A DNA stretch of 64,000 nt, from positions 315,126 to 379,125 of the forward strand of contig BCLD01000006.1 in NCBI GenBank assembly GCA_001600875.1, read 5' to 3'. Every line of letters starts with the position of its first letter. The first letter of the stretch is position 1. This DNA comes from Solicoccozyma terricola. Taxonomy: Eukaryota; Basidiomycota; Tremellomycetes; Filobasidiales; Piskurozymaceae. Below, piece by piece: positions 7,063 to 23,093 of this stretch. Under the pieces are notes generated by a model, which was not told the DNA's origin, did no database searches, and saw only the letters and a program-made list of their open reading frames with translations. Made by a program: the position numbers and the translations under genes.

Positions 7063-8537
7063 ATGCAGACAATCACAACACAACCCACGTTCATCTCCCA
7101 GGAAGAACACACAACCCTCACATCGTCCACCCCTTCATCGTTCACAGACATCCCACCGGTACTCAGACATGTCGAGGACGATGTAGAGATAGAACTAGAT
7201 CCTGCAGTTCCAGGCTTGGGAGAAGGCAGACTTAAAGGAAAATTGTGGATCACAGAGGGGTGGGTATTCTTCTTCTGTCTTTGCGGAGCGAAGACACAGG
7301 GCTCCCGTCAGGGAGCTCTGCGAGCGTAGCGAGCAATGTCGGCGAACGTAGTGAGCATTCTTGTCTTCGCGAGCGAAGCGAGCACTCTTCTCTTCTGTCT
7401 TCGCGGAGCGAAGACCATGCTCCCGTCAGGGAGCTCAGCGAGCTGAGCGAGCAATCTTGGCGAACGTAGTGAGCACTCTTCTCTTCGCGAGCGAAGCGAG
7501 CACTTTCCTCTTCGCGAACGTAGTGAGCACTTTCCTCTTCGCGAGCGAAGCGAGCACTCTTCTCTTCCCGAACGTAGTGAGCATTCTTCTCTTCGCGAAC
7601 GTAGTGAGCACTCTTCTCTTCGCGAGCGAAGCGAGCACTTTGTCTTCTGTCTTCGCGGAGCGAAGACCATGCTCCCGTTAGGGAGCTCAGCGAGCGAAGC
7701 GAGCACTCTTCTCTTCGCGAACGAAGCGAGCACTCTTCTCTTCGCGAACGAAGCGAGCACTCTTGTCTTCTGTCTTCTTCCCTTAGTGTCCCAATGCACA
7801 CAGACAAACTAATCAATCTCCAAATACGCTCTCCCCTCCATCAGTCAAATATCCTTCCTCCAGCCTTCCAACATCGGATTCGCACTAGATTACCCTCTAG
7901 TCACCCTCCATGCAATCTCCCCAGCCTCAGGATCAGATCCTGCCTTCCTGTATTGCCAATTGGAAGACTGTAAACCAAAGGAAAATGGTGTCGCCGCGGA
8001 GGACGACGAGGACGAAGACGATGACGAATCGATGAGGGAAATGAGGGTTTGGGTCAAGGATCCTTCTACTCGTTAGTCTCCACAACTCTGTCGTCACTCT
8101 TCATCCCGCACACTCCCTGACCCGTCATCTTCCGTCCCGGGCGTGGGGCGCTCAACCAGTGAACAAACTCTTCGATGCTCTCTCACACTGCGCTTCACTC
8201 CACAACACCACCACCGACTCGTCTCAAAACTTCTTCGGTCTACCTGTAGACGAAGACGACGGCGGGGAAGATGAAGATGACGAAGCGAATGGAGCATTCG
8301 AAGATGCAGCAGAAGAGGGAGATGGTGGTAGGGTGAGAGCAGATTTTCAAACTCCTGGTTCTAGATTCAGACCGTATTGAGAGTGAAGGGAACGGGTATG
8401 GTTGAGGGCGCCGCGTAACGGAGTAGGTAGGTAGGTAGGTAGAGGTGCTGGAATTTGTGGAAGGGTCGCGACGCAGAATGGAAAGGGAAAAGAAGACGTC
8501 GTAACGTCTTGAAGTTGGGGTTCGATGGGTGTATTGT

Positions 8538-8568
<31 letters not shown>

Positions 8569-21137: not shown

Positions 21138-22010
21138 ATGCGCCTTCGAAGACTGGCGGCTTCGTTGTCGCCAGAAATCGCCGCGTTGATTCCTCCACTT
21201 GGTGGGGAATATTTCCCCCCCCCCCCCTTACGTCGCCTACATACGGGATATTTTACTGACTTTCAAAATTTCGCCCATTTGTCCCACCTCAGATCTCCTC
21301 GGCTACAAGTCGACGAATCAAATAGTTTTTACTCCACCAACGATTATACAAAAACACATCCTCAACTCTCCGTCCTCCACTCTCTTCACTTACTCCACAT
21401 TCACCACTCTCCGCGAGGCATGCATCGAAGCTGAAGCCGGGGAGGTGATCGAGGACGCGGGAGAAACTTTCCTTGATGACGAAGAGAAGATGAAAGATCT
21501 CCATTGGGATGGATTCGGAATCGATGGATTGGATGGGTTGATGGTGGGGTTTTGTGGGACAGGGGTTGTCGAGGTTTGTGGGTCGAAGAGCGTTGGAAAG
21601 AGTGTAAGCCCCGCTCCGGATCGAAAGGGGGGGGTTCCGCGAAACTGATTTGCCCCGTATTTTCTTATGATTCTACCTACCCTGGTTCGGAACGTCACCA
21701 GCTCCTCATCCTACATGTCGTTCTCCGACACGTCGTGCGTGATCCACTCGCCACTTGTACGTGGATCGACACTGAAGGCGCGTTCTCACCGGAGAGAGCT
21801 GCTGGTATTCTGGAAGCGTGGCATGTCACTGTATGTTTTTTGGCGGGACGGGTTTCATCGCGCCGTACAGATTTTGGCTGAACCGGTTCCTCGTGTACAG
21901 AACGTGGAGGAGGTCCTAGGCAGGATCGAACTTGTTACATGCTTCGAAGTCAACGAAGCGAGATCGGTTATTCAGACGATCGGCAGGGAGCTGTTGTTGC
22001 AGGTGAGGTG

Positions 22011-22052
<42 letters not shown>

Positions 22053-23093
22053 CGGGGGGACTGCGGGCGGGGAGTATCTCATCACGATCGCTCACCTCAC
22101 CCATTCAAATTACTCCCAGTCCGAGTCTGATCAGGCACAAGTCCTGGGTGAAGTCTCTGCTGATCAACGAACCAACGTCATTGTGGTTGATTGCGTGACG
22201 ACGTTGTTGGCTCCGTTGATTATCGGACATTCTGTTCAAGGTATGGAAAGCATTTCTTATACACACACACACGCCCCGTCTTCAACGAACCGAACGGCCC
22301 CCCCCCCCCCCGGTACTGACGATTGAAAAGGAGTTGGGCCCGAACAGGGTATTCACAAATGGTTGGATTCATGATGGAACTTGGGTCGATAGTCCGACAA
22401 TACAACCTTCTCTGCCTCGTACGTGTATTTCACTTTTCTCATATGTCCCTCTGACACTGAGTTCTTGGTCCTGGCCCCCCCCCCCCCCCCCCCCCCCGAC
22501 CCCGCACCCCCAGTTAACTCAATCAGTTACTCCATCTATCCCGTCAAATTCAACTTCTTCATTCTCAACAACCACGATCAAACCTTGCCTCGGCACGACA
22601 TTTGCATTGTACACGGATATAACACTCCTTGTTCAAATGACGAGGGATGTGTTTGTCATGGATGAAGAGGAGAAGAATACGGAGAGGAGAGTGGTAGAGG
22701 TTTTGAAATGGAAAGATGGGGTGAGTGTGGTTGGCCGTAAGAGTATTGTGTGGCTGCTTGTAAGAGTATACCTCGCCATGGTCGCGAAGAGTATTTCTCG
22801 CTTCGCTCGCGAAGAGATGAATGCTCACTACGTTCGCCGAGTATTTCTCGCTTCGCTCGCGAAGAGATGAATGCTCACTACGTTCGCCGAGTATTTCTCG
22901 CTTCGCTCGCGAAGAAATGAATGCTCACTACGTTCGCCAAGATTGCTCGCTTCGCTCGCGAAGACATGAATGCTCACTGCGTTCGCCATGAATGCTCACT
23001 ACGTTCGCAAAGCTGATGGGACTTGAACATGTCTGCGAATGATAGCCTGCAGGGACGTGGACGGTGTTTGATACTGTGAGTGAAGTGAAGTGA
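21138..23093 (+). CDS. RAD51 paralogue (RecA-fold recombination mediator, RAD51D/XRCC2-like)
   Basis: RAD51 paralogues help load RAD51 during homologous recombination. The model starts MRLRRLAASLSPEIAALIPP and continues in about eight exons. Visible core motifs are Walker A (VVEVCGSKSVGKS, then LLILHVVLRHVV after an intron), TCTWIDTEGAFSPERAAGIL, IELVTCFEVNEARSVIQTIG, Walker B (TNVIVVDCVTTLLAPLI), GYSQMVGFMMELGSIVRQYN, KPCLGTTFALYTDITLLVQM and RTWTVFDTVSEVK before TGA at 23091-23093. The last intron runs from a GTAAGA donor at 22737 to 23052, which reads GGC C|GG ACG in phase; it is 316 nt and filled by a repeat array. G36 (about 22017-22052) follows the donor at 22001, and C runs sit at about 22303 and 22477. 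The first exon is the least certain part. Assignment to one paralogue is not possible from this alone. Confidence 0.75.
22789..23010. repeat. 50-bp tandem repeat array in the last intron of the RAD51 paralogue
   Basis: A 50-bp unit beginning GAGTATTTCTCGCTTCGCTC starts at 22789, 22839 and 22889, followed by shorter degenerate copies to about 23010. It contains CGCTTCGCTCGCGAAG and GCTCACTACGTTCGCC, the reverse complements of the type A and type B cores of the 7262-7790 array. This is therefore the same repeat family in opposite orientation, again wholly inside an intron. Confidence 0.88.

Follow-up and report, generated by a model that had tools for sequence, protein, structure and literature searches.

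Introns of the basidiomycete Solicoccozyma terricola carry a dispersed family of tandem hairpin repeats. Most of the arrays examined read in sense and, where GTRAGT is present, typically begin 8-21 nt (median 11) past the 5' splice site. On average they are better preserved near the donor than far from it, and the 3' parts of their introns are otherwise private. We consider it probable that these are intron-resident repeats, which colonised pre-existing short introns in the sense orientation near the donor and entered or grew beside it, most simply by copying. The family was recognised from intron 1 of the ICln gene in a window of 64,000 nt (the whole stretch of contig BCLD01000006.1 that was analysed), where an earlier note had described a hairpin-forming repeat array. 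The interpretation in that note is partly supported. It missed that the arrays are mostly sense, tied to the vicinity of the 5' splice site and concentrated at divergent gene pairs, and that the unit is a specific mini-hairpin with a GNA loop and G.A pairs.

The array in intron 1 of ICln

The array filling ICln intron 1 is real, and the intron is exactly 585 nt long (7260-7844; Table 1). It is far longer than ordinary introns, as the note had said: short introns have a median of 70 nt in a survey of the window and 20 loci that yielded 33 candidates with GTRAGT donors and was blind to introns longer than about 125 nt. The joined reading ...KLWITEG, continued across the junction by QISFLQPSNIGF..., gives a Pfam Voldacs (ICln) match that spans the junction. 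The sequence GAGCGAAGCGAGC occurs 12 times in the window at up to one mismatch against 0.13 expected, and the array is well beyond chance. Tandem Repeats Finder (TRF) periods in it are 27, 54, 81 and 118. The longer palindromic modules GTCTTCGCGGAGCGAAGAC and CTCCCGTCAGGGAG reported earlier are present; exact GTCTTCGC... copies lie at 7397-7415 and 7649-7667, and the GCTCCCGTCAGGGAGC module has two more copies downstream, one with a GTTA loop.

Table 1. Features of the array-bearing introns, with positions in the window
Feature	Position	Strand	Basis or context
ICln exon 1 (coding)	7063..7259	+	Sequence; spliced peptide matches Pfam Voldacs and basidiomycete ICln proteins
ICln intron 1, 585 nt, phase 2, donor GTGGGT, acceptor CATCAG	7260..7844	+	Frame and Pfam match across junction
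Tandem hairpin array, sense	7271..7775 (ends approximate)	+	Within ICln intron 1; nearly the whole intron up to 7775 is repeat
Module GTCTTTGCGGAGCGAAGAC, 8-bp stem, GGA loop	7277..7295	+	ICln intron 1
Module GCTCCCGTCAGGGAGC, 6-bp stem, GTCA loop	7301..7316	+	ICln intron 1
G-C form of the 15-nt unit, GCGAGCGTAGCGAGC	7320-7334	+	ICln intron 1
Example of the 15-nt unit, GCGAACGTAGTGAGC	7342..7356	+	ICln intron 1
Private 3' part of ICln intron 1	7776..7844	+	Acceptor CAG; branch-point-like CTAAT at 7809-7813
Array-bearing stretch, probable 332-nt intron at the end of a Rad51-family gene	22721..23052	+	Putative; upstream exon peptide; junction frame ambiguous

The frames that the note saw open through the array are indeed open, though a protein search with one of them returned 1307 candidates and none at E 0.01 or better, and translation of the array as protein was rejected. 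No Rfam match was found in the window at the gathering threshold. The predicted fold of the complete ICln intron is not unusually stable (z = -0.92; 16 of 100 shuffles fold as well), and exceptional whole-intron stability was rejected.

A dispersed family

The ICln array has at least 64 BLAST places in the 23.9-Mb genome. Three forms of the unit pattern have 131, 261 and 807 exact copies genome-wide against 0, 12 and 16 for the reversed controls, the highest count being that of GCGARCGNAGYGAGC. A unit confined to ICln is thus contradicted by a wide margin, and the proposed dispersed intronic repeat of hairpin units is borne out. Among the matches listed, the family occupies at least 163 places, some with a single unit. 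The arrays described below are a sample of 60 from the window and fetched loci, the loci being taken from repeat listings with splice sites ignored in the choice. The 27-bp unit length is the main register and not the sole spacing: in arrays with gene models the commonest spacings are 27 (101), 28 (58), 22 (33) and 23 (32). Array length varies widely between the introns examined. Very long G or C runs were also seen in the window (22010-22059 and 8540-8568) and at locus L005, some of them inside introns.

Tandem repetition of a unit of 10-100 nt, the hallmark of minisatellites, is found here, and single introns contain higher-order repeats as well. It is nevertheless very improbable that the arrays are independent minisatellites, each grown in place by slippage. 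Identical complex modules are common to arrays in many unrelated genes, and independent origin therefore fails as the sole cause. In-place expansion after arrival is likely.

Position, orientation and splicing

Of the 59 arrays whose flank could be read, 39 have a sense GTRAGT no more than 60 nt upstream, compared with 3 on the opposite strand beyond the other end, 0 at 235-300 nt upstream and 0 for the reverse complement upstream. The distances of 8 and 21 nt given above are the quartiles from GT to the first unit in these 39 arrays. Fourteen further arrays, which are weaker cases, have a donor-like sequence by eye: one has GTGAGT at the array start, four have it 62-93 nt upstream, and nine have other forms such as GTGGGT, GTAGGT, GTGCGT and GTTAGT. 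Altogether, the 60 arrays comprise 53 in sense with a donor or donor-like sequence, 2 antisense, 1 after a stop codon, 3 unresolved and 1 unreadable. Genome-wide, the pattern GTGAGTN{0,30}unit has 57 sense matches (54 distinct donors, three counted twice) against 4 antisense matches, one of which lies at the tail of a sense array in a TOM40-like gene. The arrays thus share with introners the sense orientation and gene bias (57 against 4; 39 of 59 against 3, 0 and 0), and also the multiple similar copies in introns of unrelated genes.

Reading frames indicate that the array introns are probably spliced out. Twenty peptides were compared with Pfam, 16 of them joined across the array intron (across two introns in NBP35) and 4 consisting of upstream exons alone (Rad51-like, RPS23-like, PIG-S and one unnamed). 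A match at E 0.001 was obtained for 17 of the 20, DEAD and RGS among them lying below the curated cut-off; all 10 of the first set and 7 of the 10 in the second matched, leaving 3 of the second set without a Pfam match. In 12 sense introns the Pfam domain spans the array junction: ICln, NBP35 (second junction), a CCT subunit, a xanthine/uracil permease, an RRM protein, a porin-family (TOM40-like) protein, a clathrin-adaptor small chain, a UBA protein, LipB, RGS, ThuA and NmrA. A domain also spans the junction of one intron with an antisense array, in MAF. Automatic gene models are heuristic; those of ICln and the second of NBP35 were set by eye, as were the NmrA and MAF junctions. Spliced across both array introns, the NBP35 protein aligns to four relatives with no gap at the two junctions. 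Among its named relatives, Naganishia cerealis (89% over 98% of the query) and Cryptococcus decagattii (85%) score best, and the highest-scoring match overall is a cluster at 87%. The two arrays of NBP35 lie in consecutive introns, the first fresh and the second more decayed with a different unit mix.

In short fungal introns the space between donor and branch point is narrow, so that part of the donor anchoring may merely mark where insertions are tolerated.

The two antisense arrays lie in the Rad51-family gene (about 22782-23014, head beside CTGAT) and in a 545-nt intron of the MAF gene, where the head is directly beside a branch-point-like GCTAAC. One of the longer modules reads CTAAC/CTGAC in antisense, which is branch-point-like; this reading comes from a search whose matches mostly fell inside sense arrays. 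The module is present in 30 of the 60 arrays and in neither of the two antisense arrays, which, with two cases, is only a hint of selection against antisense. Since the 15-nt unit is not predicted to fold in antisense and this module reads CTAAC/CTGAC, antisense arrays may be selected against. The sole array found clearly outside an intron (1 of 60, locus L051) lies between a stop codon and a tRNA-like sequence.

The 15-nt unit

The 15-nt unit has a hairpin pattern on the sense strand, GC-GA-RC-(GNA)-GY-GA-GC, in which tandem G.A mismatches are conserved. Units are joined by pyrimidine-rich linkers, and two longer hairpin modules occur besides. The core CGAACGTAGTGAG, earlier described as dyad-symmetric, is so only when its stem may contain tandem G.A mismatches.

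Covariation was examined in 508 units selected on the central 11-mer with at most one mismatch, the outer pairs not being selected on. The R-Y pair is G-C in 327 units, A-T in 145, A-C in 16, G-T in 13 and other in 7, so that it is Watson-Crick in a fraction of 0.93 against 0.56 when shuffled. The two outer pairs are Watson-Crick in 0.89 and 0.85 against 0.79 and 0.76 when shuffled, and pairing ends exactly at the 15-mer, with none beyond. The R-Y covariation partly reflects two ancestral unit types and not many independent changes. Both tandem G.A mismatches, which were not selected on, are intact in 291 of 307 units. Among the units in twelve listed loop triplets, 291 of 328 have GNA loops (GTA 126, GAA 110, GCA 30, GGA 25, others 37). 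In 19 of 373 units the outer stem is CT..AG instead of GC..GC. Where the outer stem is anything but GC..GC (82 units), both outer pairs are Watson-Crick in 21. For the two longer modules no excess of compensatory change was found, double changes that pair and do not pair numbering 3 vs 13 and 2 vs 10. Compensatory change was not supported for these modules (3 of 16 and 2 of 12 double changes pair) and for the register of CTTCGCGAGCGAAG, the other dyad proposed earlier, which has no sign of it (28 of 105).

In the RNA model the 15-nt unit folds and its complement does not, whereas the two longer modules are predicted to fold on both strands. Predicted energies of single units are small, -2.1 and -0.2 kcal/mol for RNA and about 0 for DNA, and a change of GA to AG leaves the RNA model energy at -2.1. 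The sequence d(GCGAAGC) and GNA loops are the classic case of a DNA mini-hairpin, and tandem G.A pairs are stable in the CGAG context.

Decay, private 3' ends and divergent pairs

Comparison of the last third of each array with the first found the last third more decayed in 24 of 39 arrays, less decayed in 7 and tied in 8 (Wilcoxon p = 0.003). In 17 array introns, several with heuristic acceptors, the first 70 nt share 6.93 8-mers per pair against 0.12 when shuffled, whereas the last 70 nt share 0.23 against 0.15, and any 8-mer is shared there in only 15 of 136 intron pairs. Because units decay toward the 3' end and the last 70 nt are essentially private, the repeats seem to have colonised introns, not made them.

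The same comparison bears on classical introners, or introner-like elements, in which each insertion created its host intron. The arrays resemble them in being gene-restricted and mostly sense, and fungal introners are described as gene-biased, without target-site duplications or terminal inverted repeats, in the portion of PMC9860276 consulted. However, introners are defined by similarity over the complete width, according to the excerpt of PMC12403724, and full-width similarity including both splice sites was absent from the 17 introns (several acceptors heuristic), as the private last 70 nt indicate. In addition, the exon ends beside the donors vary and all three intron phases occur, according to heuristic models. 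An origin of the introns themselves by such insertions is accordingly unlikely. 

Among the matches listed, the array pairs within 3 kb comprise 12 divergent, no convergent and 5 same-strand pairs, against chance expectations of about 1.0, 0.9 and 1.8 from a simulation that used guessed lengths for some contigs. Out to 10 kb the listed matches give 16 divergent, 5 convergent and 10 same-strand pairs, and the divergent excess shrinks. That close opposite-strand pairs are divergent and none convergent suggests that array introns are promoter-proximal, as does the fact that several arrays follow an exon that reads by eye as a first exon. At five loci (L003, L042, L047, L056 and L064) both genes of a divergent pair have an early-intron array, about 1 kb apart. 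Of five divergent pairs compared for array kinship, one is clearly close (top 0.5% of all pairs) and one fairly close (top 3.5%); of the other three, one is the closest partner from one side only and two are not close. Local copying between divergent neighbours was rejected on these five pairs, as paired arrays are not consistently each other's nearest relatives.

Inverted pairs would also be expected if the arrays were terminal repeats of DNA transposon or foldback remains, and among the matches listed 10 of the 12 inverted pairs within 3 kb lie within 1.5 kb. But the interiors of the four inverted pairs and one same-strand pair examined match other loci in short stretches only (about 25-90 nt, mostly simple-looking, or array units), and by eye they look like first exons and intergenic sequence. 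Among the matches listed, most arrays stand alone, with no other array within 3 kb. Terminal inverted repeats around a conserved interior, as in a DNA transposon or MITE, were thus not found in the four inverted pairs; arrays as transposon ends were rejected, and such an origin is highly improbable. No target-site duplications were seen by eye, the array ends being decayed. The 'miniature mobile repeat' of the earlier note is still a possible description, with the unrelated interiors of inverted pairs, the lack of target-site duplications by eye and the single clearly non-intronic array among 60 counting against it.

The arrays might instead be kept for a function, compacting long introns or serving as promoter-proximal (first-intron) regulatory elements. 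The covarying R-Y pair, the conserved G.A pairs, the strand asymmetry of the unit and the divergent pairing of arrays agree with this, whereas the wide variation in array length between the introns examined, the unexceptional whole-intron folding and the decay of units away from the donor do not. We regard function as an improbable explanation.

Proposed spread of the repeats

We return to intron-resident repeats that would spread near the donor, and propose the following course from sequence patterns. The repeats would have colonised ordinary short introns rather than created them, and new copies may enter or grow next to the donor. In the simplest route, one transcribed intron would be copied into another, with the GTGAGT that they have in common as the contact point, which would explain orientation, position and gene restriction together. 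The copying might run through RNA or on sense DNA that is single-stranded in an R-loop. The hairpins could promote expansion, and they may keep the intron compact and decoy splice signals hidden. Copies outside introns are scarce in the sample, and purging by itself does not account for this. Tentatively, and with less confidence than in colonisation near the donor as such, the arrays could represent a selfish repeat class, undescribed so far, that colonises existing introns at 5' splice sites and uses its sense-strand-only mini-hairpins as the substrate for copying and expansion.

The usual account of intron lengthening and repeat entry is random insertion plus selection. In the arrays examined, the family is nearly confined to introns, in one orientation, adjacent to the donor and with its hairpin pattern kept. 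Such arrays make it possible to ask if the landing sites of repeats are guided by transcription or splicing as such. Longer introns track genome size in Kwoniella, the sister genus of Cryptococcus, according to the part of PMC11185503 consulted; elements of this kind could therefore matter for genome growth.

Comparison with known systems

The arrays point to an unfamiliar kind of repeat spreading inside introns, and no description of such a family was found in open-access titles and abstract beginnings on intronic tandem arrays or introners in fungi or basidiomycetes. Like fungal introners and introner-like elements, as described in the excerpts of PMC9860276 and PMC4457414, the arrays are present as many similar, gene-biased copies in introns of unrelated genes. 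They differ in that only the donor-side part is shared, with acceptor and branch point private, and in their tandem hairpin units of variable number. The host also differs: among fungi, the excerpted introner survey names only Pezizomycotina/ascomycetes, whereas the arrays are in a basidiomycete.

The [D1,2] stwintrons of Xylariales, in which an internal intron splits the donor after its first nucleotide, are likewise sequence-similar intron insertions linked to the 5' donor, and their RNA pairs near its termini, in the account excerpted from PMC12403724. The arrays, unlike stwintrons, are tandem, and inspection of the sequence of 17 introns by eye showed neither a nested intron nor a split donor. 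With intronic minisatellites the arrays have in common tandem units of about 27 nt and a copy number differing between loci, but they are shared, dispersed, and strand- and position-specific across many loci.

At the level of the unit, GCGAAG-type mini-hairpins such as CGCGAAGCG are described as extraordinarily stable in the part of PMC10527192 consulted, and the centre of the array unit, GC-GNA-GC, is that motif. The array unit differs in adding tandem G.A pairs and an outer stem, and in occurring hundreds of times in introns.
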